A stretch of DNA of 56,759 bases. Source: a virus. The first letter of the stretch is position 1. Every line of letters starts with the position of its first letter. A program made the position numbers and the translations under genes. The stretch is from positions 1 through 56,759 of IMG/VR virus record IMGVR_UViG_3300032235_001027; one strand, given 5' to 3'. The notes under the pieces were generated by a model. It saw only the letters and a list, made by a program, of their open reading frames with translations, made no database searches and had not been told where the DNA came from. Shown one piece after another: positions 13,901 through 51,655 of the stretch.

Positions 13901-16900
13901 CAGAAGAACTCGCTTCAATTAAAATAGATTTTGATAAATTTTTTGGAAATTTGCAAAAAAGTTTCCAAGAAAATGCTAAAAAAGTTGGAGTAGATAATTT
14001 AGTAAAAACTTTTATTGCTGAATCTTTTTTAATTCCAGCTGAAACTTTAAAAGCTCAAATAAATACGTTTGGTGAGCTTCAAAAAGTTATTCTATCATAT
14101 ACTTCTGCAGAAGAGGATAATCTAGCTCTTAAAAAAGAATTGATAACAATAAATGCCCAAGAAAAAGCAAATATTGAAACTCAATTAAGATTAAAGCAAG
14201 AAGAAAGACAAACAAATGAACAATTAGGAAATGCAGCTTTTGAATTTGTGAAAAACATGCAAAATACTGCAATAACTAAATTAGGAACTTCATTGCCAGA
14301 AGATTACGCCAGCCGAAGAGCTACCGCAATGGAAAGTTTTGCAAAAAATGTATATAATCCACAAACAACTGACGAGCAAAGGTTGAAATTTGCACAAGCC
14401 GAAGTTGAGGCGATAAAATCTACAGTTAAGAGTAAAGAGCAGTTAACTAATGAACAAAAAAAATATTTAAGTTATTTAGAACAAGAAGTTATACAGCTCG
14501 ATCTTTCACAAAAAATAACTCGAAGCCAACAAGCTGCCAGACAAGATACAATTTTAAAAGAAAATCAAAGATTGGCAATTGCAACAAAAAACAGTTTTAT
14601 AGAAACAACTATAAGAGAATCTTTAACCGCAAGATTAAGTATAAATCAAAAATTATTAGATCAAGATAGGCAAAGGTTGGATATAGTTAGAAAAATAAGC
14701 GACATTCAATACGAAACCAAAACCTTGGCGACGCCAAATCAAGATCCTTCTATAAAAGAAAGATTAGATCTAGAAAGATCATTGGCTACAAGTGGGCCAA
14801 GACAAATGGAAGATTATCAAATCCAAAGGCAGTCAGCATTATTGACTGATAGATTAAATGCTTTAAATATTGCCTTTCAAAGAGGAGCAAATGCAAGCGA
14901 CGTTCAAAAAATAACAGAAGCGCAAGACTATCAATCTCTAGAACAAGCTCTTCAAACAGTTCTTGATAAAGAGGCGCAAAGCATAAATGATAGAGTCATT
15001 AAAGCTGGAGACGCATTCTTTATCAAGGCTCAAGAAGCAGGAAAGGCAGTTGGAGAAGAAATATTTAAAATACTTAATCGGGTTTCAGAAGAAGACATAC
15101 AAGATCAAATAAATATTGCAAAAGGCTCTACCTCAAAAGAAGATTATTTTGGAAGACTTCCGATTGTTACACCAGCAGCGCAAGTTGCTGCAAGTAGACT
15201 CTTTGGAGAAAAATTACCTACTGATCCTAGAACTGAATCTGGACTTCCTGCTTCCCCTGCTACTGCACGAAATGTACTTCTTGGTGGAACTCCTGTTCAA
15301 AATCCTAAAGATTTAATTAATGCACAAACAGAACAAACAATTAAACAATTAATTTTTGCACAAGAAAAAAGAGCATTAGATATAAAGTTGCAACTAACAA
15401 CTGCTGAAATCGCAAACGCTCAGAAAGCAATTGATCTTAGAAAAGAAGAAAGAGATTGGCAGCAAAAATTAAGAGATTCTGCATTTGAATTTTATCAAAC
15501 ACAGTTGAGTCCATATCAATCTGAAAAAGCAGCCGCATATAGAAATATTGAAGAAGAAAGAACAAGAGGATTGCAGGAAAATACTGACAGAATGCAAGAA
15601 AGATCATTGCAGTCCAGACAAGCTGGAGTCAAAACTTTGCAGTCTAGAGGAGCATCTCTTTCAGAAATAAATAGCTTTTTAAAAGGAGAAAAGACAGCTC
15701 CAGAAATAATCAAATCAATTGAAGACAAAAACATAGACAAAATGTATGGACTGGAAAAAGATCCATTTGCAGAACAAGTGGTAGAGGCAGCTAAGGAATT
15801 TAAGCAAATTATATTGGGTGCTGGAGCATCTTTTGTTTCAGGAAAAAAAATAGCAAGTGGCAATATTGAAGCTGGAGGTTTTAATTCAAAGGATTATTTG
15901 GGCTTTAATCCAAAAGACGAAAGTCAACAAGCGTTTCCATCTCCAATTAATGGTGCAGTAAGCAACTTAAGAAATGAAGAATTAAAAGCTTCAGTAAATA
16001 AAGCTAAATTGCAAACTTTTCAGGAAAGGCTTTCTGAATTATCTCCAGAAATTGAAAGGATAAAAAATAAACCTGTACCATTAGATGCAGCTCCAACTCC
16101 AGAAGAACAAGCAACATTAGACTATGCAGAAAATTTACAAAAATCAATAGATGAACTTACTTCCGCTTTAAAAGAAAAAGCTCAACAAGAAAAAGATAAA
16201 TTTACTGAAAAAAACGCATCTTTGTTAGTTAATGCAGAACAACCACTTCCATTTATAGATAGAAGTGGTCAAGTAAATCAACTAGCTTCAAATAGAACGA
16301 GAACAGTTAATGAAAAATTTGCGCAAGAAGAACAATTCGGAAAAGGATTTCGCTCTGGATTAAGGGATATAGATGACGAAATTACTAAATTCCAAGGAAA
16401 ACTTGGAAAACAAATTCCAACAGATTTTAGAAATGGATTAGTTGACGCAATGAGAGTTTTGTCAGATCCAAGTTCTACTGCTTCTTTAGGCGAAAGATTA
16501 ATGGGTGTAGCAACTGCATTTGTTAATAAAATAAATGAAGCATTAATGACAAAAGCTGCAAATCAGTTTACTACGGGACTTTTTGGAAATGGACAACCTG
16601 GAACTGGTCTTGCTGGAGCACTTGGTTTTGCTTCTGGAGGCGAAATTGAAGGCGGTTCTGGAGTTAAAGATGATGTGCCAGCAATGCTAATGGGTGGTGA
16701 ATATGTTATTAGAAAAGATGTTGTAAATAAATATGGAAAAAGTTTTTTTGAAAAACTTAATTCTGGAAAATTAAAAGGCTTTGCAAGTGGTGGACCAGTT
16801 ATGCCATACGGAATGCAAGAGACTGATTTGAATGATTTAATCAGAAATCCAAACAAATATACTGCTTATGGCGAAAATAGAATGGCTGGTCTTTCATTTG

Positions 16901-18252
16901 ACCAAAGCGGAAAAGTAACTGGCATTGACAACTATCAAGGAAAGGAAGAAGATAAGCAGGATGCATTACTAAAAGCTCAAACAAATTTTTATAGTCAAAA
17001 CCAACAGACTGGACAAAATGGTTTCTTTGCACCTGGAAGCTATGGACAAGGAGCAATAATTGGACAGAAAAATTTACTTTCATTTGCGACACAAGAAACA
17101 GTAGGCACTCAATATGATAAAATGTCATCATCTGGTAGTTCAGCTTCAATTGATATTGCTGGAGGAAGTGGAAATCTTTCATTATTTGCTCTTCGTGATC
17201 AAGGCAACGTAAGAAATGCTCAGTATTTAGAATCCAAAAACAAAGCTTTAGATTTATATTTCCAAGACTATCAGACTTCTAAAGATAAAATAAGAATGGA
17301 TTTTGAAAATGAAAAAGAATACAAGAGGCAAATGGAAGAGTGGGAAAAGGCTAAAAAAGAAGCTAAAAAGCAAGCTCAAAAAGCATTGATTACACAATTA
17401 GCTACAACAGCTATAATGGCTGGCGTTAGTTACGCTGGAAGCGCGATGTCTAAGGGAGTGAGTGCGACTAAACAAGCGGCAGCTTTACAAGGAAAAACTG
17501 CAACATTTGGGGAAAAATTTAAAGGAGCATTTACTGGAGGATCTTTTGGTGGCGAAAGCAGAGGTGGATTGGCAAATATTTTTAACAGTTCTGCAACAAA
17601 AGACTTTTCAACAATTGGAGCTGGAGCTTTAGGAAAGCAAGGCGGTGGATTATATAGTTGGAACAATAAGACAAATTCATATTCAATGATGAATATGGAT
17701 ACTTATAATACCCAATTTCCATTAGGAGCATCTTATGATAAACTAGGAACTCCTACCGCATTAACTTCTGGAACTTATTTTGATTCATTTTACGGAAGAA
17801 ATAGGTCTGTATATAATGGTAAAACTGTACCAATGGCAATCCCAATGGCAATACCAGTAGCTAGAAGGGCTGCTGGTGGTTATGTAGCTGGTAACGGAAT
17901 GGGTGATAATGTGCCAGCAATGTTGAATGGTGGAGAGTTTGTAGTCTCTAAAGAAGCTGCACAGAAAACTGGATATGGAGCTTTGCAAAAATTAAATTCA
18001 ACTGGTGCAACTGGTGGAGATTCTGGTGAAATGACATCTAGAATAGAAGCTAAATTGGAAGAATTAGTTGAAAAAATAGCTGGCGTTGGAACAATTAATA
18101 TATCAGTAAATTCAGATGGAAAAGGTGGCGAAAAAGAAAGCCAAAGCGATTCTAAACAAGATCAACAAAATAAAGAATTAGCAAGAAGAATTAAAGAAGT
18201 TGTTTTATCAGTTCTAAGAGACGAGAAGAGATTGGGAGGCATGTTAAGATAA
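7981..18252 (+). CDS. tail tape measure protein with GYIPNF-bounded insert
   Basis: 3,423 residues; no cysteine was seen on reading. Residues ~1-400 form a TP901-type tape measure core (ASTQVEASLKEIQVATGET, FARQGGTLEDSL, GLTAAVLSFNQ). A hydrophobic stretch lies at about 420-446. From about 600 to 1565 an insert is punctuated by GYVPNFA (625), GYIPNFS (873), GYIPNFA (1087), GYIPNFS (1499) and GKVPNFA (1555). The first segment carries E773, D800 and E823-x-K825 in the arrangement of a PD-(D/E)XK nuclease. A second hydrophobic stretch is at about 1757-1783, followed by long coiled-coil helices, and two copies of DxVPAMLxGGE(Y/F)V near 2895 and 3310. AAAGGATTAAGGA before the ATG gives a good ribosome-binding site. 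The protein sets tail length and is injected or extruded at infection. Confidence 0.93.
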   Translation: MAEDIRLSVGADTTQMESQIANAAKKAAVVIRPTIDSKGLEKISAPLGRITGQADEFSKSMEAANARVLAFGASVGVLNAVAKSFQNIVTASTQVEASLKEIQVATGETSGNLERLGKGIFEVARSTGLSFKQASEATLEFARQGGTLEDSLMKAKAALVLTRTTGLDAAEAVKGLTAAVLSFNQVGLDYETVVNKLAAVDTKFAVSSRDLIEGISRSASVAQEAGVSFDELTALITTLQEKTARGGAVIGNALKTIFQRVQTTENLDYIRNLGIAVNDVSGDILPATTIIKKLADEFQNLDSATRKGLLIKIGGGFQIDKLAALLNDISNANGTFNRSLEQSTNAGNEGFKKLDELNKTVQASFDRLTTSGTQFAATIGKVAFSDDFRSILNKTSSFLESLNESISGGEEGGATIGKAIVKGIGSVITGPGALLIAGLGIKLFGDLAKFGVDSLKNQLGVTNVKKEQQDIEKSILGLLLQNTAVQTKIVSLEGNKTAQAEYLLGLYSKQAATLEKMSKLSKEVGPSVYEGGIRLTTEGTKNVKAKTAAGGYMSKEVAKKMEMQEAPAGASIKEISNFNFGPTEGRGTMIVNSMESVYKTPMGDFVVPSYSKTRTGKPTLFSASGYVPNFADVQKSLDIDANAYSFAGLTIGGTGLKTVRGKQLSPQLLSEVKDPALIEALSKYSKLNFKNVSVGNIYRRRDQNLDSLEASEEDIKNHFLKKANEALSPQIGTFIKDELSSLGIKPTATMQLMMNRGKKFDFVNDSMAGTFFETMLKMANMSAEDENFGQFFNDSNSRFDIYGLKPDIAEQYGLPKKFWEYVEIKSSEKALNDELGTKFIQQLSQPGGEALKAKLLNQSASIPKQNAKTASKGYIPNFSEGGFAYEKTAKALRLKDKEDKVDSNKKAVDIFKGEIKPIRQNKTIKEYTKQAQETVSSIVKKLGKTTGKEIDDTKLNTTLKEFEKKGIDPVKIKSVRTAVENLNPTDRRKNGGYLALINQVKGILGEIDASKKSETPLTKGNAFLDLISGDEVKTTKSQKGSEIFLKAVKDHLTKMPETLYNGSEDIVPLGTRNVYLPKDTPFTAAQGYIPNFAIKELKNAPVMTIGDRVKGATIEQLKNRLGGNESYTTDLAGTKVNENLDINKIKNDMAASILGPNYHLLGNDGSLDKAYYAKLISAFTTYKTGKTNKTAFGQMPEIKSDENRAVTGEVSGFARELKYEKLGQIFDIIAKNRNMQDVWTQIFQTKAGAGVRSINSPDEQSKISKLVTQFRPVVIDELTKRLKTKVSAIMTTIGRDDAEFLALGKSVNIDEYGNLLLPDKLKVDKLQQEKRFVMPLQTPENLKRVGKSKLDRIILKDPKKQTNENKSFGTFNSTSLKASNFLDIISQSEYPYGSYQTTKEDKYTGRSIVRNVAGWKGENGIEAKLNSLNQENPFLAKKIKSIFAYDKNKKKMVITNQAEAEKLKNVLQIVKDFNISDWDNIDFEKSLQTYAVAKTASEGYIPNFSREAILDAIGREQSESGLPLSAIKVVQDARVRGPQNPDGYAVINNRDEPDGKVPNFAAPSSGLDPAVLKAIEESLNGLKNLKDSSLNLDDAFKRIADNLGVSGEAVVQVFDKMTSSGSDVTSTNQTAAANSAQNTKQGNKEAQDRKTTNEKQNKTVQDSLYTLIKWQSAVSLASGVISSFGENGKVAAEVLTELSSIGLLFTQGKEVLEGFTKDRSSGAGKALRLGGAGREGAASLSSSLSIAGNFGRVANTAGVGVGGAIGGITAGLAGPAAAIYAAYKATDVLNTLYKKYGETADRTADALGRLNDIQKTYTLNLTEEQKAKSESFVRKVGTFEAATAFDRAFNFQNLNPLDKTKQTKNALQSLGLEGSVNTGILSGLSQMVQPQAEAEFATRRKNGEKVTTTEIVDRMVAEKINEIAKNTSFTDKGRTAAEAREFANKQALDLQQKKGGLSSDAYTKMNEKIQNEFAEELASIKIDFDKFFGNLQKSFQENAKKVGVDNLVKTFIAESFLIPAETLKAQINTFGELQKVILSYTSAEEDNLALKKELITINAQEKANIETQLRLKQEERQTNEQLGNAAFEFVKNMQNTAITKLGTSLPEDYASRRATAMESFAKNVYNPQTTDEQRLKFAQAEVEAIKSTVKSKEQLTNEQKKYLSYLEQEVIQLDLSQKITRSQQAARQDTILKENQRLAIATKNSFIETTIRESLTARLSINQKLLDQDRQRLDIVRKISDIQYETKTLATPNQDPSIKERLDLERSLATSGPRQMEDYQIQRQSALLTDRLNALNIAFQRGANASDVQKITEAQDYQSLEQALQTVLDKEAQSINDRVIKAGDAFFIKAQEAGKAVGEEIFKILNRVSEEDIQDQINIAKGSTSKEDYFGRLPIVTPAAQVAASRLFGEKLPTDPRTESGLPASPATARNVLLGGTPVQNPKDLINAQTEQTIKQLIFAQEKRALDIKLQLTTAEIANAQKAIDLRKEERDWQQKLRDSAFEFYQTQLSPYQSEKAAAYRNIEEERTRGLQENTDRMQERSLQSRQAGVKTLQSRGASLSEINSFLKGEKTAPEIIKSIEDKNIDKMYGLEKDPFAEQVVEAAKEFKQIILGAGASFVSGKKIASGNIEAGGFNSKDYLGFNPKDESQQAFPSPINGAVSNLRNEELKASVNKAKLQTFQERLSELSPEIERIKNKPVPLDAAPTPEEQATLDYAENLQKSIDELTSALKEKAQQEKDKFTEKNASLLVNAEQPLPFIDRSGQVNQLASNRTRTVNEKFAQEEQFGKGFRSGLRDIDDEITKFQGKLGKQIPTDFRNGLVDAMRVLSDPSSTASLGERLMGVATAFVNKINEALMTKAANQFTTGLFGNGQPGTGLAGALGFASGGEIEGGSGVKDDVPAMLMGGEYVIRKDVVNKYGKSFFEKLNSGKLKGFASGGPVMPYGMQETDLNDLIRNPNKYTAYGENRMAGLSFDQSGKVTGIDNYQGKEEDKQDALLKAQTNFYSQNQQTGQNGFFAPGSYGQGAIIGQKNLLSFATQETVGTQYDKMSSSGSSASIDIAGGSGNLSLFALRDQGNVRNAQYLESKNKALDLYFQDYQTSKDKIRMDFENEKEYKRQMEEWEKAKKEAKKQAQKALITQLATTAIMAGVSYAGSAMSKGVSATKQAAALQGKTATFGEKFKGAFTGGSFGGESRGGLANIFNSSATKDFSTIGAGALGKQGGGLYSWNNKTNSYSMMNMDTYNTQFPLGASYDKLGTPTALTSGTYFDSFYGRNRSVYNGKTVPMAIPMAIPVARRAAGGYVAGNGMGDNVPAMLNGGEFVVSKEAAQKTGYGALQKLNSTGATGGDSGEMTSRIEAKLEELVEKIAGVGTINISVNSDGKGGEKESQSDSKQDQQNKELARRIKEVVLSVLRDEKRLGGMLR

Positions 18253-33703: not shown

Positions 33704-34477
33704 GTGATTTCAGTATATCATTCAGCATTTAATTTAAACAAGCATGGTTTTACTGGATGGCAAGACTGCTTACGTAAGTCATGTCAATTTGCAGATCAAG
33801 TAGTAATTGCAGTAAATACATCCGAAGATGATACCTATGACACTGTATCATCTATTTTAAAGGATAATGCTAAAAGCAGCATACTTTTAAAAACAAATTT
33901 TGACTATCAAGACCCTTGGCTTGATGGTAAAATTAAAAATGCAGCTCTTCAAGAGTGTAATTGCGAATTTAAAGTTCAATTAGATTTAGATGAATATATT
34001 CCATCTTGGCAGCGTCCACTATGGGACTCCATGTTTTTCAGGCTTAAATTTGATGGAGTTCAGTGTTATGCAGTTCCATCTATTGATTTATATAAAGATT
34101 TAAATCATTATAAATCCATAAATCATAAACAATACGCTCATAAAGGTCAAGCATATAGAGCGCCACAAAAGGCAGCTAGAAAAGCTGACGGAACAATAAA
34201 TACGCTACTCAGCGATGGATGCGATTTAGTTGATCAAGAAGGTAATTTTATTTCGACAGCTGCAATTACAAAAGATATTAATATCCTTGAAAGCAACCAA
34301 GCTCCATTTGTGGTACATCTTGGATATGTAGACCTTAATTCTAGATTAAAAAGAAATCATGAATTTTGGAACGAACATTGGTATGTAGAGGGAGGTGGAC
34401 AAGCTCCAGCTCATAAAATACATATGAATGATGAGGATTTCGACTATCCATATATACAGCATAAATTAAAATTATGA
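33704..34477 (+). CDS. glycosyltransferase-like protein (GT2-like, GT-A fold)
   Basis: 257 residues from a GTG. SVYHSAFNLNKHG at the start and DQVVIAVNTSEDDT give a Rossmann-like first half; QLDLDEYIP at about 94 provides a D-x-D motif for metal and nucleotide-sugar binding, as in GT-A enzymes. The remainder has FVVHLGYVD and a Trp/His-rich end (EFWNEHWYVEGG). First gene of the sugar cassette, overlapping the next by 4 bases (ATGA). The acceptor is unknown. Confidence 0.6.
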   Translation: MISVYHSAFNLNKHGFTGWQDCLRKSCQFADQVVIAVNTSEDDTYDTVSSILKDNAKSSILLKTNFDYQDPWLDGKIKNAALQECNCEFKVQLDLDEYIPSWQRPLWDSMFFRLKFDGVQCYAVPSIDLYKDLNHYKSINHKQYAHKGQAYRAPQKAARKADGTINTLLSDGCDLVDQEGNFISTAAITKDINILESNQAPFVVHLGYVDLNSRLKRNHEFWNEHWYVEGGGQAPAHKIHMNDEDFDYPYIQHKLKL

Positions 34478-35049
34478 TAAACGGAAAAACAATTACGCTC
34501 TCATCTATTGCGTGGGGAAAAGAAATTGAAAAAATTAAATTAACATTTAATCATTGTTTAGATATTTTCCCTTTTTTTGATGATGTAAAATTAATTACTC
34601 ATATTGATAATGCAACAGAATATAATAGATTTTCAATAGAAAACTTAAACAATTTTATAGAAACTGATTTTGTATTGCTAATACATTCAGATGGCTTTAT
34701 AAAAAATCCACATCTCTGGAATGATAATTTTTTAAATTTTGATTATATTGGTGCGCCTTGGCCTTGGCATGGAGTATGCGGAAATGGTGGATTTTCATTA
34801 AGGAGCAAAAAATTTTTAGAAATAAGTTCTAAATTAAAATATATAAAATATCATGAAGAATATGATAATTGTCCAGAAGATAACTTTCTATGCTTAGATA
34901 AATACAAACGTGGCTTTATGATGCAAAATGGAATAAAATTTGCTGATATAAAAACAGCTTTAGACTTTTCATTTGAACATTCTATTTCGGAATATCCAAA
35001 TCACACAATAGAAAATTCTTTTGGTTTTCACGGAAAATTTAATTTATGA
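34474..35049 (+). CDS. DUF5672-like glycosyltransferase-type protein
   Basis: 191 residues. The order TDFVLLIHSDGFIKNPHLWNDNFLNFDYIGAPWPW, GNGGFSLRSKKFLE, PEDNFLC, KFADIKTALDFSFE and FGFHGKF is that of DUF5672, a family associated with glycosyltransferase genes. H-S-D-G takes the position of a DxD-like motif. It overlaps its neighbours on both sides by ATGA, so the three first cassette genes are translated as a unit. Confidence 0.72.
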   Translation: MINGKTITLSSIAWGKEIEKIKLTFNHCLDIFPFFDDVKLITHIDNATEYNRFSIENLNNFIETDFVLLIHSDGFIKNPHLWNDNFLNFDYIGAPWPWHGVCGNGGFSLRSKKFLEISSKLKYIKYHEEYDNCPEDNFLCLDKYKRGFMMQNGIKFADIKTALDFSFEHSISEYPNHTIENSFGFHGKFNL

Positions 35050-35798
35050 TTTCAATATCTTATAATTATTCATCAAATGATATTGAATTTTTAGAACAAT
35101 GTATTGAGCAAGCAAAAATTGTGACAGATGATATACATTTTACTCATGTAGATAAATTTTTTAATGGGGATGAAGAAAATAAATTTTTAATAGACCAAAG
35201 CAAAAAAATTGCAAAAAATATAAATTTTCATGAATTAAAATTTCAAGATTTTTCAAAACAAATGCCAGATAAAAAAATAAGATTCAAATATTGGCACAAT
35301 GCATGTAGGTTAAATAATACATATAATTCTAAATATAAATACGTTCTTTATTTGGATGGAGATGAAATATTAGATGGAATTGAATTAAAGAAATGGTTAA
35401 ATAATGGATTCGAGAAATTTAACTGTTATGTATTTAATGTTTATTGGTACTTTAGAAGCAAAAATTACCAAGCAAAAACATTTGAGGAAGGACCAATTAT
35501 GGTAAATAAAAATTTACTTACAAATGAAGACATAATGAATATATCTGAAAGATGGGCTTTACTAAAAAATCCATGCGCTAGAAGCATAAATTCACTAGAT
35601 AATAAACCGATGATACATCATTTTAGTTGGGCAAAAGGAAATTCTGACGAAGAATGTAAAAGAAAACTGCTAAGTAAAGTTGAGAGCTGGGGTCATTCTA
35701 CGGATAGAGATTGGAAATCTCAAATAGAAGAAGAATTTTCAAGACCATTTAATGGAACCGATTTCGTACACAATTATAATTATAACATATTAATTTAA
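35046..35798 (+). CDS. glycosyltransferase family 2-like protein
   Basis: 250 residues. YLDGDEIL at about 102 is a D-x-D motif; YNYSSNDIEFLEQCIEQAK and WHNACRLNNTYNSKYKYVLYLDGDE match the nucleotide-binding half of GT-A enzymes. A C-terminal MIHHFSWAKG resembles the acceptor-side W-x-H region. It is the third successive glycosyltransferase-like gene and differs from the one at 33704 in sequence. Confidence 0.62.
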   Translation: MISISYNYSSNDIEFLEQCIEQAKIVTDDIHFTHVDKFFNGDEENKFLIDQSKKIAKNINFHELKFQDFSKQMPDKKIRFKYWHNACRLNNTYNSKYKYVLYLDGDEILDGIELKKWLNNGFEKFNCYVFNVYWYFRSKNYQAKTFEEGPIMVNKNLLTNEDIMNISERWALLKNPCARSINSLDNKPMIHHFSWAKGNSDEECKRKLLSKVESWGHSTDRDWKSQIEEEFSRPFNGTDFVHNYNYNILI

Positions 35799-35810: not shown

Positions 35811-37097
35811 ATGAAAGAAATGATATCTGAATTAGTTTCAAATTTTAATCCTCCATATATTTATAATTCTAAAAATTTTATACCGCAAAAAAGTACAGTA
35901 TATTATTCTGGACCCTATTGGGACGAAAGGGAGTTGGAGGCGTCAATTTCTTCTTTATTAACTGGTAAATGGGTAACCGCTGGAGAAAAAGTTAATAAAT
36001 TTGAAATTGAGTTTTCCAAAAAGTTTAATACAAAATATTCTCATATGGTTAACTCTGGGAGTTCCGCAAATTTAATTTTAATTGCCGCATTAAAAAAGAG
36101 ATTCCTATGGGAAGATGAAGATGAAATTATTGTATCTCCAGTTGGTTTTGCAACTACGATATCCGTTATACATCAAAATAAATTAAAACCAGTTTTTGTA
36201 GATATAGAATGGGAAACTTTAAATTTTGATACAAATAAAATTGAAGAAAAAATAACAAGCAAAACAAAGGCAATTTTTGTTTCTCCAGTACTGGGCAATC
36301 CTCCAGATATGGAAAAGTTGATTGAATTATGTGAAAAATATAATATAAAATTAATTGGTGATAATTGCGATAGTTTGGGCAGCAAATGGAATGGAAAATA
36401 TTTAAATGAGTATTATGTAGCTTATTCTAATTCATTTTATCCTGCACACCATATTTCTACTGGAGAAGGTGGAATGGTTTGTACCAATGATTTAGAATTA
36501 AAAAAATTATTTGTAAGTCTTAGTTGGTGGGGAAGAGATTGTTATTGTGTTGGTTCTGCAAATTTACTTTCGTGTGGAACTTGTGGCAATAGATTCGATA
36601 AATGGTTAGAAAGTCATGATCAAATCGTGGATCATAAATATGTTTTCTCTCAAATGGGTTTTAATTTAAAACCATTGGATCTACAGGGAGCAATTGGTTG
36701 CGAGCAACTTAAAAAAATCGAAGAAATAGAAATCAAAAGGAAAATTTCAAAAAATACTTTGACAGATATTTTTTTAAATAATATTAAAGGTTTAAAAACT
36801 CCAAATATTTTAGATAAAGCTGACCCTTGTTGGTTTGGAACTCCTTTTATTTGCGAAGATTCTAATTTAAAAAATAAGTTAGTTAAACATTTAGAAGAAA
36901 ATAAAATACAAACAAGAAATTATTTTGCTGGCAATATATTAATGCATTCTGGATATAGTTTTCTGGATGACTATAAGAAATATGTAGAAGCGAATAAAGT
37001 TTTAGGAAAAGTTTTCTTTATAGGTGCAGCCCCACATTATAATGAAAATATTTTCTCTTATATTGAGGAGGTTATAAAAAAATTTAAATATGAATAG
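35811..37097 (+). CDS. RfbH/E1-like 4-keto-6-deoxyhexose 3-dehydratase (DegT family, iron-sulphur type)
   Basis: 428 residues of the DegT/DnrJ/EryC1/StrS fold. In SFYPAHHISTGEGG the usual PLP lysine is histidine (H213), the hallmark of the 3-dehydratases RfbH/E1 and ColD. Cysteines C186, C244, C246 and C255 (with C258) give C-x57-C-x-C-x8-C, almost the C-x57-C-x-C-x7-C 2Fe-2S signature of CDP-6-deoxy-4-keto-glucose 3-dehydrase (E1); ColD lacks it. Nearby WGRDCYC and CGNRFDKW also match RfbH. The reaction removes the C3 hydroxyl en route to 3,6-dideoxysugars and needs a reductase (E3), which is not in the window. The neighbouring gmd makes a GDP-linked 4-keto-6-deoxy sugar, so the donor nucleotide is uncertain. 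Confidence 0.8.
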   Translation: MKEMISELVSNFNPPYIYNSKNFIPQKSTVYYSGPYWDERELEASISSLLTGKWVTAGEKVNKFEIEFSKKFNTKYSHMVNSGSSANLILIAALKKRFLWEDEDEIIVSPVGFATTISVIHQNKLKPVFVDIEWETLNFDTNKIEEKITSKTKAIFVSPVLGNPPDMEKLIELCEKYNIKLIGDNCDSLGSKWNGKYLNEYYVAYSNSFYPAHHISTGEGGMVCTNDLELKKLFVSLSWWGRDCYCVGSANLLSCGTCGNRFDKWLESHDQIVDHKYVFSQMGFNLKPLDLQGAIGCEQLKKIEEIEIKRKISKNTLTDIFLNNIKGLKTPNILDKADPCWFGTPFICEDSNLKNKLVKHLEENKIQTRNYFAGNILMHSGYSFLDDYKKYVEANKVLGKVFFIGAAPHYNENIFSYIEEVIKKFKYE

Positions 37098-37929
37098 TAA
37101 AATATCGGTTTTTGGATCAACTGGATTTATAGGATCTGAATTTTGCAAAAAATATAAAAAAGACATTATTGAAATTGAAAAAAATGATTTTTTTCCAAAA
37201 AGCGATACTTTATTATATCTTATAAGTACAGTAGATAATTATAATATTTTTACTAGTAGCACGTTGGATATTGATACAAATTTGATTTATTTGATGAAAG
37301 TTCTAGAAAATTGCAAAAATAAAAATATTAAATTTAATTTCATTAGTTCTTGGTATGTTTATGGAAATGTTGATTTACCAGCAAGAGAAGATTCAAATTG
37401 CAATCCAAAGGGATTTTATTCTATAACAAAATATGCTGCAGAAATGCTTGTAGAATCATTTTGTAATACATTTAATATTGACTATACAATAATTAGATTG
37501 GGAAACGTAATTGGTGGAAGGGATAAAAAAGCATCAAAAAAGAAAAATGCATTTCATTTTTTATTAAATGAGTTAAAAAATAATTCTGAAATATCATTAT
37601 ACAATGATGGAAAATTTTATAGAGATTTTATAAGTATAAATGATACGGTTGAAGGATTAAATTTTTTAATAAAAAATGGAGAAAATAAACAAATTTATAA
37701 TTTATCAACTGGAGTTCCAGTTTTATTTTGCGATGCAATAAATTACGCTTACAAGAAATTAAAATCGACTAGCAATATAAAAAATATGGAGCCAACTAAT
37801 TTTCACAAAATAGTTCAAACTGAATCAATGCATTTAGATATATCAAAAATAAGAAAGTTAGGATTTCTTCCTAAAGAAAACATACAACAAATCATAGATA
37901 ATTTAATATCTGACTTTAACTTAAACTAA
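37090..37929 (+). CDS. NAD-dependent sugar epimerase/reductase (SDR family)
   Basis: 279 residues of extended SDR type: SVFGSTGFIGSEF for NAD(P) binding, ISSWYVYG with the catalytic Ser, and YSITKYAAE with the Y-x3-K pair. YRDFISINDTVEG and NLSTGVPV match the substrate half. It probably reduces or epimerises the sugar made by the dehydratases on either side. Short for the family but complete. It overlaps the upstream stop by 8 bases. Confidence 0.78.
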   Translation: MNSKISVFGSTGFIGSEFCKKYKKDIIEIEKNDFFPKSDTLLYLISTVDNYNIFTSSTLDIDTNLIYLMKVLENCKNKNIKFNFISSWYVYGNVDLPAREDSNCNPKGFYSITKYAAEMLVESFCNTFNIDYTIIRLGNVIGGRDKKASKKKNAFHFLLNELKNNSEISLYNDGKFYRDFISINDTVEGLNFLIKNGENKQIYNLSTGVPVLFCDAINYAYKKLKSTSNIKNMEPTNFHKIVQTESMHLDISKIRKLGFLPKENIQQIIDNLISDFNLN

Positions 37930-37941
37930 AAAATAAACACA

Positions 37942-38511
37942 ATGAAATATTTCATAAATTATAAAAACATACTAACCGCGCAACTTCCATCTACTTTAGA
38001 TTTTTTAAAAAAAATTATTTCTGAAAATAATTTCGAAACAATTCTGGAGATTGGAACGAACAGAGGGGGATTGACATTATGGTTAAATGATAATAAAAAA
38101 ATAAATTCAAAAATTTATTCTTTTGAAATTTATGAACATATTCCACTTTTTAAAAAAACAGACCTTGATGGCGATTTAATTATAGGAAATATATTTAGTG
38201 AAAATATTATGCAAATTGTAAAAAATTTACTTTTAGATAAAAAACAATGCCTACTTCTATGCGATGGTGGAGATAAAAATACTGAATTTAATTTATTTTC
38301 TAAATTTTTAAAGCCTAATGACGTTATTATGCTACATGACTACTGCGACAATGAAGAAGAATATAAATTAATTCAACAAGAAACTGGTTGGCCAACTCCA
38401 GCAGAAAGTGATTTAAATTCAATTTCATTATCCATTCGACAAAATAATCTTGAGCCCTATTATTACGAAATGGGTAAAAAGAATTTATGGGGTTCATTTA
38501 TAAAAAAATAA
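37942..38511 (+). CDS. class I SAM-dependent methyltransferase (CmcI-like)
   Basis: 189 residues. ETILEIGTNRGGLTLWL is motif I with the glycine loop; SKIYSFEIYEHIPLF is the motif II acid region; CLLLCDGGDKNTEFNLFSKFLKPNDVIMLHDY fits the D-x-(D/H) acidic and metal region of CmcI/cephalosporin-hydroxylase-like methyltransferases. Within a sugar cassette a sugar O-methyltransferase is the best reading. Confidence 0.68.
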   Translation: MKYFINYKNILTAQLPSTLDFLKKIISENNFETILEIGTNRGGLTLWLNDNKKINSKIYSFEIYEHIPLFKKTDLDGDLIIGNIFSENIMQIVKNLLLDKKQCLLLCDGGDKNTEFNLFSKFLKPNDVIMLHDYCDNEEEYKLIQQETGWPTPAESDLNSISLSIRQNNLEPYYYEMGKKNLWGSFIKK

Positions 38512-38514
38512 AAA

Positions 38515-39567
38515 ATGAAAAAAGTATTAATTACAGGAGTAACTGGCCAAGATGGAAGTTTGATGGCGGAATATCTTTTATGTAAATATGAAGATATAGA
38601 AGTATACGGTGCTCATAGGAGATTGAGCGTACCAAATCATTGTAATATTCAGCATTTAAAATCAAACCCAAGATTTAAAGTGATTGAAATGGATATTACA
38701 GATCCAGAAAGTATCAGCAATGTATTTGCTGAAATACTACCAGATTATTTTATTAATTTTGCAGCTAATTCTTTTGTTGGAAATAGCTGGAAGATGCCAG
38801 TAAATCACATGCAAACAAACGCAATGGGCGTTTTGCATTGCCTTGAGGCAATTAAAAATATCAAGCCAGATACTAAATTTTATAATGCTGGAAGTTCTGA
38901 GCAATTTGGAGATGTAGATTATGCGCCACAAGATATCAAACATCCATTTAAGCCAAGATCTCCATATGGAGTCTCCAAATGCACTGCTCATCATTTAGTA
39001 AAAGTATACAGAGAATCCTATAATATTTTTGCAGTTCAAGGAATCTTATTTAATCATGAAGGTGTTCGTAGAGGAGAAGAATTTGTAACTAGAAAAATCA
39101 CAAAAAATGTAGCTAGAATAAGCAAGGCAATTAAAGAAGGTAAATCATTCGAACCACTAAGACTTGGAAACATTCTTTCTCAAAGAGATTGGAGCGATGC
39201 AGAAGACTTTGTTCGTGGAGTATGGCTAATGCTTAATCAGGAAAAACCAAAAGACTACGTGCTTTCCTCCAATGAAACTCACACAATTAAAGAATTTGTT
39301 GAGTTGGCATTCAAGCATGTCGGGATTGTTGGAGAGTGGGCGGGAGAAAGCGGAAATAAAAAATATATTATTCCTAATTATTATATTGATATTTCTGGAA
39401 TTAAAAGTTCCATTTTAATGGAGATAGATCCTCAGTTCTACAGGCCCGCAGAAGTTGACTTGCTTCTTGGTGACTCAACCCCAGCAAGAGAAGAGCTTGG
39501 ATGGAAACCAGAAACATCGTTTCAAAAATTAGTGGAAAAAATGGTAGACAACGATTTATCGTCATGA
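38515..39567 (+). CDS. gmd: GDP-mannose 4,6-dehydratase
   Basis: 350 residues, full family length. GVTGQDGSLMAEYL at 8 is the NADP(H) loop; NFAANSFVGNSW, NAGSSEQFG with the catalytic Ser/Glu and SPYGVSK with Y-x3-K are all present; FNHEGVRRGEEFVTRKI and RPAEVDLLLGD match Gmd substrate and dimer segments. It converts GDP-D-mannose to GDP-4-keto-6-deoxymannose, the precursor of fucose, rhamnose, perosamine and colitose. Substrate binding looks conserved, so it is probably active. Last gene of the cassette, ending at the promoter of the recA cluster. Confidence 0.93.
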   Translation: MKKVLITGVTGQDGSLMAEYLLCKYEDIEVYGAHRRLSVPNHCNIQHLKSNPRFKVIEMDITDPESISNVFAEILPDYFINFAANSFVGNSWKMPVNHMQTNAMGVLHCLEAIKNIKPDTKFYNAGSSEQFGDVDYAPQDIKHPFKPRSPYGVSKCTAHHLVKVYRESYNIFAVQGILFNHEGVRRGEEFVTRKITKNVARISKAIKEGKSFEPLRLGNILSQRDWSDAEDFVRGVWLMLNQEKPKDYVLSSNETHTIKEFVELAFKHVGIVGEWAGESGNKKYIIPNYYIDISGIKSSILMEIDPQFYRPAEVDLLLGDSTPAREELGWKPETSFQKLVEKMVDNDLSS

Positions 39568-45304: not shown

Positions 45305-46075
45305 ATGATACCAGTATTTAAGTCAAACTTCTCCATAGGGAAAAGCATACTGACATTAGATTTGCCAGAATCTTGTCCAGATGAAGATGGAGCAGATTCT
45401 ATTTTGCAAATCGCAAAAGATAACAATCTAAATCAAATTGTTCTCGTTGAAGATTCGATGATTGGCTTTTTAGAAGCCCATAAAGCGACAAAGAATTTAA
45501 ATATTCATTTGATTTATGGTTTAAGACTAAATTGCTGTAATGACGTTCTTGACGAGAAGAAAGAACAGTCAAAACATAAGATCATCGTCTTTGCTAAAAA
45601 TGACAACGGGTGTAAATTGTTAAATAAAATTTATTCAAAAGCATTTTGCGACCATTCTGGATTTGTTGACTGTAAAATATTAATGGAACTTTGGGACGAA
45701 AGCTCTCTTAGATTAACGATTCCATTCTATGATTCTTATATCCACAATAACAGCTTTGGATTTGGAACTTGTTTGCCTAATTTTGTTTTCACTAACCCAC
45801 ACTATTTCGTTGAGCGTAATCATTTACCTTTTGATTCGTTGCTCGAAAGACGAATCCTCGAAATAGAAAAAAATCCAACTTTAGTAAAAACAATTCTTTA
45901 TAAAAATAAAAAAGATGTTTTTGCATTTCAAACTTACAAATGCTTAACTAATAGATCCTTCGGAAAAGAAACTTCATTATCAAGTCCAAATTTAAATCAC
46001 TTTGGATCTGACGAGTTTTGTTGGGAAAGTTATTTAGAAGAAAGTAAAAAATATGGAAGACTTGCTACGGTTTAA
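45305..46075 (+). CDS. DNA polymerase III alpha, PHP domain as a separate protein
   Basis: 256 residues that align by eye with the N-terminal PHP domain of DnaE: ADSILQIAKDNNLNQIVLVEDSM, LNIHLIYGLRL, IIVFAKNDNGCKLLNKIYSKAF, FTNPHYFVERNHLPFDSLLE and a closing DVFAFQTYKCLTNRS ... FCWESYLE, the usual lead into the palm. The HxH at the normal N-terminal position is missing (VFKSNFSIGK), so metal-dependent PHP activity is probably lost. It overlaps the exonuclease gene by 23 bases and is followed by the catalytic gene; presumably the three assemble into one enzyme. Confidence 0.72.
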   Translation: MIPVFKSNFSIGKSILTLDLPESCPDEDGADSILQIAKDNNLNQIVLVEDSMIGFLEAHKATKNLNIHLIYGLRLNCCNDVLDEKKEQSKHKIIVFAKNDNGCKLLNKIYSKAFCDHSGFVDCKILMELWDESSLRLTIPFYDSYIHNNSFGFGTCLPNFVFTNPHYFVERNHLPFDSLLERRILEIEKNPTLVKTILYKNKKDVFAFQTYKCLTNRSFGKETSLSSPNLNHFGSDEFCWESYLEESKKYGRLATV

Positions 46076-46682
46076 ATTCGATCAAAAATATTTAATTCTT
46101 GATACCGAGACTGAGGGATTAAATTTAATTTCCTCAAGACCTTGGCAAGTATCTTGGATTGCAGCTCAAGGAAAGAATATCAAATCTAAAAATGATAGAT
46201 TTGTTAAATGGTCAAATTTAAATGTAAGTCCTGACGCTGCAAGAATAACTGGATTCAATCAATTTGATTACGAATCTAAAGCAGAAGATCCAAAGAAAGT
46301 TTTGTTAGATTTGTGGTCAGTTATAACTGATCCAAGCTATATTATTGTCGGACAAAACTTACTTAATTTTGATGTTTATATTTTAAATATACTGCGCAAA
46401 TGCTGCGGATTAGATCCTGACTATTCATACGTGCATAGAATTTTGGACACAAGAGCTTTAGCAATGTCTATTGCAATGGGCAATAAGGATATTGACAAGA
46501 GCGATATTTTAACTCAGTATAAGTACATATCTCATAGAGATAAAAAAATTAAAACAAGTCAAGCTGCACTGCTTAAGCAGTATGAAATTGAACACGATCC
46601 GTTGAAGTTGCACAATGCTCTTTATGACATTGAAATGACATTCAAAATCTTTTTAAAACAAATACAAGAAATCAATATTTAA
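46053..46682 (+). CDS. DnaQ-like 3'-5' proofreading exonuclease
   Basis: 209 residues of the DEDDh family: D17 and E19 (ILDTETEG), D107 (GQNLLNFDVYIL), and H187-x-A-x-x-D192 (LHNALYDIE). It removes mispaired 3' ends for the polymerase. The gene sits between the PHP and catalytic genes and abuts the latter with TAA followed directly by ATG, so the order PHP-exonuclease-polymerase of Gram-positive PolC is reproduced by three genes. Confidence 0.88.
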   Translation: MEDLLRFKFDQKYLILDTETEGLNLISSRPWQVSWIAAQGKNIKSKNDRFVKWSNLNVSPDAARITGFNQFDYESKAEDPKKVLLDLWSVITDPSYIIVGQNLLNFDVYILNILRKCCGLDPDYSYVHRILDTRALAMSIAMGNKDIDKSDILTQYKYISHRDKKIKTSQAALLKQYEIEHDPLKLHNALYDIEMTFKIFLKQIQEINI

Positions 46683-49235
46683 ATGTTCTCTGATTTTCAA
46701 AAATATAAATCTCCAACTGCTGCTGGAGTTCTTTTGCCGAAAATTAAAATTGAAGATAAGTACTACAAGATGTTGAGCGCTCCAAACTCAATATCGAACT
46801 ATGACTTTTTAAGACGCTTGGCTTTCAAGGGAGTAAAAGACAAGAAGATTGATTTGCTAGAAAATAAACAAGAATACCTTGATAGGGCAAAAACTGAACT
46901 GACTATTCTTGAAGAGCTTGGATTTATTGATTATATTTTATTAAACTGGGACATATTAAATTATTGCCATGAGAATGAAATTCCTACTGGAGCTGGTAGA
47001 GGAAGTGCAGCAGGAAGTTTGATTTTATATCTTATTGGTGTAACTAAAGTAGACCCTATTAAATATGGACTATTCTTTGAAAGATTTGTTTCTAAAAGCC
47101 GCGCAAGAAAGATCATTGATAACAATATTGTTTATCTTGATGGTTCTCTGCTGGCAGACGTCGATAATGATATTGCGTATGAAAGAAGAAAAGAAGTCAT
47201 CCAATACATCGAAAACAAATTTAAAGGTAAAACGTGCAAAATTCTTACGATGAATACATTGAGCGGAAAGCTCTGTATTAAAGAATGTGGCAAAATCGTA
47301 GGAGAATTAGAAGAATCAAAAGTAAATGAAATCAGTGAATCTATTCCGAAAAAGTTTGGCAAGGTAGCTCCGCTAACTCAAGCCTTTCAAGAGAGCGATA
47401 AGTTTAGAGAATTTTGCAATGAGCATCCAAAAGTTTATGAGATTGCTAGAAAACTAGAAAACTTAAATAAAAATACTGGAGTTCATCCGTCTGGTATTGC
47501 AATTTCTCATGACGAATTAACAGAGTTAATGCCAGTTCAAAAAACTGGAGATGGCGATTTAGTTTCTGGATACGACATGAACAATGTCTCAGAACTAACA
47601 GTTAAGTTTGATATTCTTGGATTACGTACTCTTTCCGTTCTGCAGGATGTTTGTAAGCAAACTGGAATTAATTTGACGGAGATTGATCTGTCTTCAAATT
47701 TAATCTATGATTATTTAAAAGATCTTCATAATCCACAGGGGTTGTTTCAGATCGAAGCAGATACAAACTTTAGGGTATGCCAAAAGGTTAAACCAAGAAA
47801 CCTTGAAGAGCTTTCGGATGTAGTAGCAATCGCTCGTCCAGGTGCTTTAGAGTTTTTACAGAACTATGCAACTTATATTGAGAGTGGAAACTTTCAAAGC
47901 GTTAATCCATTCTTTGACGAAGAACTTTCTTACACTGGAGGAATTCCACTATATCAAGAACAGTTGATGAAAATGGCGGTCAAGGTTGGATTCACATTGG
48001 ATGAATCTGAGCAATTAAGAAGAATTGTTGGCAAAAAGAAAGTCGATCAAATTGAAGCTTGGAAGCAAAAGATTGAGGACAAGATTAAGGAAAATAATTT
48101 AACTGAAGAGATTGGCAATGTGCTTTGGAAAGTTGCCGAAGATAGTGCGAATTACTCCTTCAACAAATCGCACTCAATATCTTATGCCATTCTAGCTGCT
48201 TGGACTGTTTATTTGAAATTTAACTACCCAAAAGAATTCTTCTTAAGCTTGCTTAAATCTACTCAATACGAACCAGATCCCCACGAAGAGATTTCAAAAA
48301 TATCAAAAGAACTAATTTATTTTGATATGAGGCTTTTAGCTCCAGATTTGATAAAGTCTGACTCTGATTTTAAAATTGAAAACAGAGATATAAGATATGG
48401 CCTGAATTCAATTAAGGGCATATCAACAAAAGTGCTAGAGTCGCTAATTGATTTTAGGCAGAATAGCTTTTCAAATAAATATGATTTATTTATTGCCGCA
48501 AAAGAATCTGGATTGAATATTGGAGCTTTGTCAGCATTAATACAAGCTGGGGCGCTAGACAGTCTATCTAGCGATAGATGTAGGCTAGTTCTAGAGGCTC
48601 AGACATTCAATATTCTGACTGATAGAGAAAAGATACAGTTTGTTAATATTGGATCTATTTATAACTACGACATCCTTCATTCGATCAAAGAGGTTGTCTC
48701 AAAAGACATGGTGGGAGACGACAACAAGAAAATAATGACCGCCAAAAGATTTGAAACATTTAAAAAGAAATACGAACCATACAAAGAAATTTATGAAAAA
48801 AATGTTAAGCACCAAAAATTTGCAAACTGGTTTTTTGAAAAGAAACTTTTAGGCTATAGCTACTCTTATAATATTCGAGATATCTTTAAAGATTCGGACG
48901 ACAAACGATTTACTAGCAGTTTGGAATTTAGGGCAACCGAAAACAATACTAACATTAGAGTTGTGGGATGGGTTTCTGAAGCTGAAAAGAGAACTAGTAG
49001 AAACCAAAACAAATACCTGAAAGTAAGTCTTCAGGATGAATTGGGCTCTGTCACTGCAATGCTGATGGATGGAAGGGATAATAAAATGACTCAATATTTT
49101 GAAAATGGAGGCAAAATACCTAAAGAGGATAGCGTAGTTGTATTGACAGGCAGGAAATCAAATGATACCATGTTCTTGGATAATCTTTTTATATTGGATG
49201 AAAAGATTTATATGAAATTGTCAGAATTGAAATAG
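46683..49235 (+). CDS. dnaE: DNA polymerase III alpha, catalytic part
   Basis: 850 residues. The palm starts with PTGAGRGSAAGSLILYLIGV and FFERFV; catalytic aspartates D159 and D161 (ADVDND) and D310 (KFDILGLRT) are present. Later KLENLNKNTGVHPSGIAIS, QGLFQIEAD, VVAIARPGALEF, PLYQEQLMKMAVKVG, FNKSHSISYAILAAWTVYLKFNYPKEF and the helix-hairpin-helix region GLNSIKGIS are standard DnaE. An OB domain lies at about 755-840 (IRVVGWVSEAEKR). About 13 extra residues lie between FERF and the catalytic DxD. The C-terminus has no clear clamp-binding peptide. It carries out phage genome synthesis with the helicase and primase. Confidence 0.93.
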   Translation: MFSDFQKYKSPTAAGVLLPKIKIEDKYYKMLSAPNSISNYDFLRRLAFKGVKDKKIDLLENKQEYLDRAKTELTILEELGFIDYILLNWDILNYCHENEIPTGAGRGSAAGSLILYLIGVTKVDPIKYGLFFERFVSKSRARKIIDNNIVYLDGSLLADVDNDIAYERRKEVIQYIENKFKGKTCKILTMNTLSGKLCIKECGKIVGELEESKVNEISESIPKKFGKVAPLTQAFQESDKFREFCNEHPKVYEIARKLENLNKNTGVHPSGIAISHDELTELMPVQKTGDGDLVSGYDMNNVSELTVKFDILGLRTLSVLQDVCKQTGINLTEIDLSSNLIYDYLKDLHNPQGLFQIEADTNFRVCQKVKPRNLEELSDVVAIARPGALEFLQNYATYIESGNFQSVNPFFDEELSYTGGIPLYQEQLMKMAVKVGFTLDESEQLRRIVGKKKVDQIEAWKQKIEDKIKENNLTEEIGNVLWKVAEDSANYSFNKSHSISYAILAAWTVYLKFNYPKEFFLSLLKSTQYEPDPHEEISKISKELIYFDMRLLAPDLIKSDSDFKIENRDIRYGLNSIKGISTKVLESLIDFRQNSFSNKYDLFIAAKESGLNIGALSALIQAGALDSLSSDRCRLVLEAQTFNILTDREKIQFVNIGSIYNYDILHSIKEVVSKDMVGDDNKKIMTAKRFETFKKKYEPYKEIYEKNVKHQKFANWFFEKKLLGYSYSYNIRDIFKDSDDKRFTSSLEFRATENNTNIRVVGWVSEAEKRTSRNQNKYLKVSLQDELGSVTAMLMDGRDNKMTQYFENGGKIPKEDSVVVLTGRKSNDTMFLDNLFILDEKIYMKLSELK

Positions 49236-49240: not shown

Positions 49241-49249
49241 AATATGGAG

Positions 49250-51655
49250 ATGGAAAAATATAATCTTGTTCCTAGAGTCAAGAAAGTTATTGAGTCAGCT
49301 ATAGAGACAGGCAATAAATATAAACATAAAAAAATAAATAATGCCCATATATTGTACGCCATAGTTGAGCATGCATCTCTGCCAATTAAAGCAGTTTTTT
49401 CAAATTTTAAAGTAAATAATGATGGATTAAAAAAATCATTAATGTTGGAGCTTCCAATAGCTGAACCAAATCTTTTTTTAAAGGAAAATAATGAAGATTG
49501 GTGGAGTTCAGATATCGAAGATGCACTAAGGGCATCTTTCAAACTATCTAAAAGTCTAGGCCATGAATTTATAGGCGTTGAGCATTTAACTTATTCAATA
49601 CTTAAAAACGACGCTAAAATAAATAAATTTTTACTCTTTAAAGAGTTTCCATTGGATCAAGTCGCAGAAGCTGTGATTAATCTTTTAGATCCTAACGAAA
49701 AAAATGAAAGCGAAAAGGATAAAAAAGATAACGAAAATTCTTCAGAGGAAAAATCTGAAAAAATGTTTTGTGCTAAATATTGTCACAATTTAAATGAATC
49801 AGTTTTAAAATACGAGTCTAAAATTGAAGGTAGGGATGAAGAAATTTCTAAACTGATAGAGATTCTATCATGCAAAATTAAAAATAATGCAATATTAGTT
49901 GGCGAAGCTGGAGTTGGCAAAACTGCAATTGTTGAAGCATTAGCTCAATTAATCAACGCAAACGAATGTCCAATTTTCTTTTCTGGTTATAAAATTTATT
50001 CTTTAGACCTTGGATTAATGGTTGCAGGCACAAAGTACAGAGGTCAATTCGAAGAACGATTTAAAGGTCTTATAGAAGAATTAAAAGAAGATAAACAGTC
50101 AATTTTATTTATTGATGAGATTCATTCCATAGTTGGAGCTGGATCTACTGAAGGATCGCTTGATTTGGCAAATATGATTAAGCCTGCTTTGGCAAGAGGT
50201 GAAATTAAATGCGTTGGAGCAACAACGCAGGCTGAATATAAAAAATACTTTGAAAAAGATTCCGCTCTAAATAGAAGATTTCAAGTAGTTAATATCGAAG
50301 AGCCGAACAAAAAACAAACCTTTGAGATACTAAGAAAAGCCAAAGATGCTTATGAAACTTTTCACGGAGTCACTTATGATGATTTAATTATTGATAAAAT
50401 TATTACTTTGTCTGAGAAGTATATGCCGTACAGGAAATTTCCAGACAAAGCTTTTGACATTCTAGATAGAATAGGAGCAAAAGGAAAAATTCAAAAGTTT
50501 GAAATTCCTAAGAATCTAAAAAATAAAGAAGATGAAATTATAGACTCGATGGAAAAGTTTGATTTGTCCCTACAGGAAAATAAGGACAAATGCGAAAAGA
50601 TGCTTAAGAATTTCTTAACCAAGAGAAATGCTTGGATTAAAAAAACAGCAAGTTCATTTTTTACTATTAATGAGCAACATATTTTAGAGATCTTTTCAAA
50701 AATCAGTGGTCTTGATGTAGATAAAATAAAAGCAGAATGCACGGATAATTTTCTGTCTCTTAAAGAAGAAATTGAATCTAAAATATTTGATCAATCTCAA
50801 GTCATAAATAAAATTTACGAAGTTCTTTTGTGCGCAAAAGCGGGAATTAAAAAGACTAAGAAGACTATAGCTAATTTCTTATTTATTGGTTCGACTGGAG
50901 TTGGAAAAACTTATACTGCGAAAGTTATAGCTGAAAAGTTTTACAATAAATCTAACTCATTTCTTCAAATAGATATGGCGGAATACATAGACAAGAATTC
51001 CATATCTAAACTAATTGGAGCTACAGCAGGATACGTTGGATATGAAGAAGGTGGCCTTTTATCTGAGTTTGTTCGCAATAATCCATTTTCATTGATTCTT
51101 TTTGATGAAGTTGAAAAGGCTCATCCAGATGTAGTCAATATCTTATTGAAAATTATGGACGAAGGATCAATCGTTGATAATTTTAATCGGAAAATTGACT
51201 TCTCCAATACCATTATCGTATTAACTGGTAACATTGGCGCTGAAACTGAAACAGCCCGCTCTATGGGCTTCTCAAGCTCACAGTCTGCCGAAAACAGAAA
51301 GAATGATTATGAGAAAGCAGTAAAGAGGCAATTCAAACCAGAATTAATATCGAGACTTGATGAAATTTTAATTTTTAATAATAAGTTTTCAAAAGATGGT
51401 TTATTTAAAATGATTTCAGAAACAATTTCTGAAATACAAGATTCGTTGAAAAGCAAGGATATAAAACTAGAAACCTCAAATGAGATTAAAAATCATTTAT
51501 ATTCTTTAATTGAAAAAGATGGCAATAATGCTAGATCTGTACAAAAAGTATTAAAAAATAATTTTGAATTACCCTTGTGCAAGTTTTTAGTTTCAAATCA
51601 AAATTTGAGTAAAATTTCTATAAAACTAGTTGACAATGACATCTACTTCATGTAG
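49250..51655 (+). CDS. ClpA/ClpC-type AAA+ unfoldase
   Basis: 801 residues from the second of two nearby ATGs (49244 and 49250). Clp-N repeats at about 1-145 (NNAHILYAIVEHA, EFIGVEHLTYSIL), a charged linker, the first AAA+ domain with Walker A GEAGVGKT (218) and Walker B ILFIDEIH, a short middle part, and the second AAA+ domain with GSTGVGKT (547) and LILFDEVEKAHPDV. After the second arginine-containing region an SMGFSS segment sits where the ClpP-docking (L/I)GF loop of ClpC is found. This suggests it may deliver proteins to host ClpP. Likely targets, host or phage, are unknown. Confidence 0.88.
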   Translation: MEKYNLVPRVKKVIESAIETGNKYKHKKINNAHILYAIVEHASLPIKAVFSNFKVNNDGLKKSLMLELPIAEPNLFLKENNEDWWSSDIEDALRASFKLSKSLGHEFIGVEHLTYSILKNDAKINKFLLFKEFPLDQVAEAVINLLDPNEKNESEKDKKDNENSSEEKSEKMFCAKYCHNLNESVLKYESKIEGRDEEISKLIEILSCKIKNNAILVGEAGVGKTAIVEALAQLINANECPIFFSGYKIYSLDLGLMVAGTKYRGQFEERFKGLIEELKEDKQSILFIDEIHSIVGAGSTEGSLDLANMIKPALARGEIKCVGATTQAEYKKYFEKDSALNRRFQVVNIEEPNKKQTFEILRKAKDAYETFHGVTYDDLIIDKIITLSEKYMPYRKFPDKAFDILDRIGAKGKIQKFEIPKNLKNKEDEIIDSMEKFDLSLQENKDKCEKMLKNFLTKRNAWIKKTASSFFTINEQHILEIFSKISGLDVDKIKAECTDNFLSLKEEIESKIFDQSQVINKIYEVLLCAKAGIKKTKKTIANFLFIGSTGVGKTYTAKVIAEKFYNKSNSFLQIDMAEYIDKNSISKLIGATAGYVGYEEGGLLSEFVRNNPFSLILFDEVEKAHPDVVNILLKIMDEGSIVDNFNRKIDFSNTIIVLTGNIGAETETARSMGFSSSQSAENRKNDYEKAVKRQFKPELISRLDEILIFNNKFSKDGLFKMISETISEIQDSLKSKDIKLETSNEIKNHLYSLIEKDGNNARSVQKVLKNNFELPLCKFLVSNQNLSKISIKLVDNDIYFM

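Follow-up and report, generated by a model that had tools for sequence, protein, structure and literature searches.

Which reaction does the phage enzyme encoded at 35811–37097 (+) catalyse, and on which sugar nucleotide? The window, by which we mean the whole 56,759-bp viral fragment that forms the source record, holds at this position an uninterrupted ORF of 428 amino acids. The fragment comes from a tailed phage, as shown by its tape measure protein together with a DnaE-type polymerase. The tape measure protein (7981–18252, +) is 3,423 amino acids long, implying a very long tail. DNA polymerase III alpha is seemingly split into three successive ORFs (45305–49235, +), namely a PHP-domain ORF (45305–46075, +), a DnaQ-like exonuclease ORF (46053–46682, +) and a polymerase ORF (46683–49235, +), and is followed by a Clp-like protein (49244–51655, +) with two AAA domains, an AAA_lid_9 domain and a weak Clp_N match.

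The closest PDB sequence to the 428-residue product was E1 of Yersinia pseudotuberculosis (3bcx, E = 8.6e-74, a value that excludes a chance match), followed by ColD and then by ordinary aminotransferases. A fold search with an AlphaFold model of the product (mean pLDDT 91) likewise placed 3bcx first (E = 6e-39) and ColD second. The phage enzyme thereby resembles E1/RfbH/AscC/DdhC (CDP-6-deoxy-L-threo-D-glycero-4-hexulose 3-dehydrase, 3bcx) in fold and over its full length, and shares with it a histidine PMP-type site and four aligned cysteines, but it is only 33–36% identical, and its score against the NCBIfam RfbH profile (362.7 bits) lies under the curated cutoff of 423 bits.

By counting along 3bcx, we placed the E1 cysteines at positions 193, 251, 253 and 261, which we take to be the cluster ligands, and the active-site histidine at 220. 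Phage residue H213 (codon 36447–36449, +), in the motif SFYPAHH, aligned opposite E1 H220 in place of the PLP lysine, as a sequence-only reading of this DNA had proposed. Three of the four cluster cysteines named in that reading also found partners: C186 (36366–36368, +) opposite C193, C244 (36540–36542, +) opposite C251 and C246 (36546–36548, +) opposite C253. Its fourth, C255 (36573–36575, +), did not; the residue opposite E1 C261, in TCKKRF, is instead C258 (36582–36584, +), which lies in TCGNRF and is preceded by four extra loop residues. Conservation was counted over 317 viral homologues pooled from four scans. H213, C186, C244, C246 and C258 were invariant in 317/317, while position 255 was Cys in 160 and Asn in 154, and C255 was missing from cellular members of the clade too; the E1 alignment and these counts rule it out as a ligand. 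The signature of the phage enzyme is thus C186-x57-C244-x-C246-x11-C258. The gap of 11 residues between C246 and C258 is present in 317/317 viral homologues, so the viral clade does not match the spacing C-x57-C-x-C-x7-C, to which the phage motif had been said to come close; x7 is found in most ordinary RfbH. A review describes four cysteines surrounding PMP in E1 (PMC8987622). By alignment, we predict that the phage protein carries a bound [2Fe-2S] cluster.

The four cysteines bear directly on the second-best match. ColD (GDP-4-keto-6-deoxymannose 3-dehydratase, 2gms) has the same fold and is also a histidine-type 3-dehydratase, but it has no cluster, and glutamate takes the place of a reductase (PMC8987622), unlike the phage enzyme with its full set of cysteines. 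They bear equally on the idea that the phage protein acts as an aminotransferase to give an NDP-4-amino-sugar, as SpnQ does when deprived of a reductase, using PLP and glutamate (PMC8987622). That idea fits the aminotransferase fold and the lack of a reductase encoded nearby, but would leave the invariant histidine-for-lysine replacement and the four cluster cysteines with no reason to persist in 317/317 homologues, and some of these phages have a separate Lys-type enzyme (L064, L068 and L069); we regard it as very improbable.

The first viral scan, with the window protein as query, matched 526 related stretches; the top 80, at 71–79% identity, were taken forward. The nearest homologues labelled as cellular came from Bacteriovoracales (58–61%), a Nitrosomonadaceae MAG (58%), a Prochlorococcus single-cell contig (56%) and a Nitrospirales MAG (48%); among the matches listed, the remaining cellular homologues were at most 41% identical. 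In two trees the viral sequences grouped with these near cellular ones (support 99/98 and 100/100), and ordinary RfbH, including Yersinia E1, fell outside. In these trees the window enzyme is a member of a well-supported, almost wholly viral clade that is sister to ordinary RfbH, and a placement among ordinary aminotransferases was not seen. RfbH profile scores divided along the same line (337–365 bits for phage-type enzymes against 607–747 for ordinary RfbH), and the near-fixed differences between the two groups include the x11 loop, in place of x7 before the last cysteine, and W239, which replaces an aspartate. Within the clade, 20 near-fixed differences separate the window's subclade from its sister subclade. 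Attempts to read nucleotide specificity from conserved differences were uninformative without substrate-bound coordinates.

Judged by profile, PDB and fold matches, tree and alignment, the gene at 35811–37097 is an E1-type (RfbH-like) NDP-4-keto-6-deoxyhexose 3-dehydratase with an active-site histidine and a conserved cluster site, and is neither ColD nor an ordinary aminotransferase. The E1/RfbH-type assignment made in the sequence-only reading is therefore borne out by the E1-first sequence and fold matches, the conserved histidine and cysteines, and the separate clade.

Two other sets of genes were met in the course of the scans. OR851175 (L087), labelled as Salmonella phage, was rejected as a phage homologue, as this 2.6-kb record is ordinary rfbG-rfbH DNA and is probably host contamination. 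A second DegT-family protein, with a catalytic lysine (FQAIKHITTGDGG), lies near the E1-type gene in L064, L068 and L069.

The closest characterised homologue is the CDP-using E1, and the automatic annotation of one cyanophage copy points the same way, to an ordinary CDP pathway in which a divergent RfbH acts on host CDP-4-keto-6-deoxyglucose. Gene neighbourhoods argue against this. Whereas a CDP-glucose pyrophosphorylase or dehydratase (RfbF/RfbG) was present near 52 of 75 ordinary RfbH genes, within the available flank, neither was found near a viral-clade E1 at any of 321 loci or in any of 108 viral clusters (clustered at 90% identity), a contrast with a Fisher p of about 1e-27 when relatedness is ignored. 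No CDP-glucose dehydratase scored over the profile cutoff in 50 viral records. The viral enzymes also form their own clade, set apart from E1 by its lack of CDP-glucose genes, and the hosts would themselves need a CDP-dideoxysugar pathway. We consider the CDP pathway improbable here.

What recurs near the viral enzymes is RmlB, in 120/321 loci and 30/108 clusters, with a contiguous RmlB-SDR4-E1 arrangement in 65 viral loci. The cyanophage RmlB cleared the NCBIfam cutoff, which the RmlB of marine virus AG-345-D19 narrowly missed; in Bacteriovoracales, the SDR-E1 pair has divergent RmlA and RmlB as neighbours, each scoring above its cutoff. RmlB is rare in the window's own subclade (1 of 81 loci of the first scan). 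An RmlC-type 3,5-epimerase is present in 17 of 50 sister-subclade records (for example G050, G051 and G064), which would fit either rhamnose or an L-sugar branch of the ascarylose type, and some of the RmlB proteins could serve rhamnose.

The use of dTDP-sugars by an enzyme of this kind has precedent. The statement, made in the sequence-only reading, that known E1 enzymes use CDP-sugars is contradicted by SpnQ, an E1-like Fe-S 3-dehydratase that acts on a dTDP-sugar (PMC8987622). SpnQ, UrdQ and OssQ, from antibiotic pathways, are E1-like, use dTDP-sugars and have no dedicated E3, and the Fe-S motif is present in SpnQ (PMC8987622, PMC6490886). SpnQ differs from the phage enzyme in having a 2,6-dideoxy sugar as substrate and in belonging to an actinobacterial pathway; actinobacterial E1 homologues (not identified as SpnQ) fell within the ordinary RfbH clade. 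Any SpnQ-like dTDP context of the phage enzymes would lie in the RmlB association at clade level; the window itself has no RmlB.

The window does encode a GDP-mannose 4,6-dehydratase (gmd, 38515–39567, +), from which a GDP-linked substrate had been deduced. In such a scheme, Gmd would supply GDP-4-keto-6-deoxymannose, E1 with a borrowed reductase would remove the 3-hydroxyl by Fe-S rather than ColD chemistry, and the SDR would finish a colitose-like GDP-3,6-dideoxyhexose. This is attractive locally: the record encodes no 4,6-dehydratase other than Gmd, which lies 1.4 kb downstream of E1 on the same strand and has no adjoining GDP-fucose synthase, and gmd without fcl recurs in L402 and L404, which with the window are the only three such loci. 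Across the clade it fares less well, as gmd is present in only 19/321 viral loci and GDP-fucose synthase adjoins it in 16 of these 19. Genes resembling GT11 fucosyltransferases are common and occur in most loci with both gmd and GDP-fucose synthase; this co-occurrence means that GDP-fucose, independently of E1, accounts for gmd at most loci. Most relatives have E1 with no gmd at all, and we rejected Gmd as an obligate partner of E1. The gene pair that prompted the GDP proposal is real, then, but the step from it to a GDP-sugar is weak, the more so as RmlB recurs instead. The window's gmd may feed E1, and GDP is a possible, and the main, alternative for this particular phage; overall we rate the GDP scheme as rather unlikely.

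Because CDP-glucose genes are lacking, RmlB recurs and Gmd is explained by GDP-fucose, dTDP is most likely the nucleotide at the level of the clade. For the window's phage, dTDP would be an extrapolation from the sister subclade.

Immediately downstream of E1, and overlapping it by 8 bp, is a gene for an SDR-family NAD(P)-dependent epimerase/reductase (SDR4, 37090–37929, +), whose family and position suggest a 4-keto reductase or epimerase. An SDR from either of two families adjoins E1 on the same strand in 72 of 81 first-scan loci (84 rows minus three Lys-type aminotransferase paralogues), with an overlap that is mostly 1–4 nt. Between SDR4 and gmd is a methyltransferase-like protein (37942–38511, +; Methyltransf_24, below cutoff), for which methylation of a sugar or glycan is possible. 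Upstream in the same gene run are an unclassified protein (33704–34477, +), with no Pfam or PHROG match, that may, from its position and residues, be a glycosyltransferase; a DUF5672 protein (34474–35049, +), a putative glycosyltransferase that clusters by sequence with genes from related loci; and a protein of unknown family (35046–35798, +), without a match, that may also be a glycosyltransferase.

An E1-type enzyme needs electrons, and the sequence-only reading had noted that the reductase partner was missing and must come from the host or from beyond the window. Indeed, the 56,759-bp record yielded no E3, having neither a Fer2 nor a NAD_binding_1 domain. The Fer2 domain was likewise absent from 46 related IMG/VR records and a 642-kb phage, and no protein of E3 length was found in 96 other viral records, which are fragmentary, or in four named phages; because the records are fragments, this absence is not proof. 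Such an absence is nevertheless usual: among 75 ordinary RfbH loci, a motif search picked up a linked E3-like ORF in just 7 (a loose count, some loci being short), and SpnQ works with ferredoxin or flavodoxin systems and no dedicated E3 (PMC8987622). For OssQ, the reductase is thought to be encoded elsewhere (PMC6490886). The simplest reading is that the host provides the electron donor. A small stand-alone ferredoxin is encoded by three named cyanophages (L083, L084 and L085) and in 10 of 50 other viral (IMG/VR) records; such small plant-type ferredoxins on E1-bearing viral contigs are possible electron donors.

The explanation that we favour, and think probable, is that the gene encodes an NDP-4-keto-6-deoxyhexose 3-dehydratase that needs PMP and a [2Fe-2S] cluster, belongs to a phage-centred clade, and works with dTDP at clade level and with an SDR partner. 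After PMP and the 4-keto-6-deoxysugar nucleotide have joined in a Schiff base, H213 would take the C4' proton of PMP and drive out the C-3 hydroxyl. Two electrons, from host ferredoxin or flavodoxin or, in some cyanophages, from a phage-encoded source, would then pass through the C186/C244/C246/C258 cluster to the glucoseen, whose reduction would yield an NDP-4-keto-3,6-dideoxyhexose. The SDR at 37090–37929 would reduce or epimerise this product, and glycosyltransferases would attach the finished sugar to a virion or host glycan. In this scheme we infer cluster occupancy, electron donor, substrate, product and use; a search of the open literature found no biochemistry on any member of the clade.

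More tentatively, as a prospect that we hold to be serious though somewhat short of likely, the large viral E1 family as a whole may run a dTDP route (RmlB, E1 and SDR) to 3,6-dideoxyhexoses, which would add a third nucleotide to CDP and GDP for these sugars; host or phage ferredoxin would drive the route, and its products would decorate virions or infected cells.

Viral rfbH or ascC/ddhC genes are listed by name among virus sugar genes or auxiliary metabolic genes in passages of two reports (PMC10653327, PMC11295528); those passages, found through an open-literature search, do not mention the separate clade, the changed motif or the RmlB/dTDP association. Viral copies annotated as rfbH can be taken as evidence of a CDP-dideoxysugar pathway, and if the substrates of the clade are dTDP- (or GDP-) sugars, such an interpretation would be wrong for hundreds of viral contigs. 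The corrected cluster motif comes with a ready, testable enzyme set in RmlB, SDR and E1. If the proposal is true, phages of aquatic habitats would possess a pathway of their own to sugars that, elsewhere, are chiefly familiar as O-antigen determinants.
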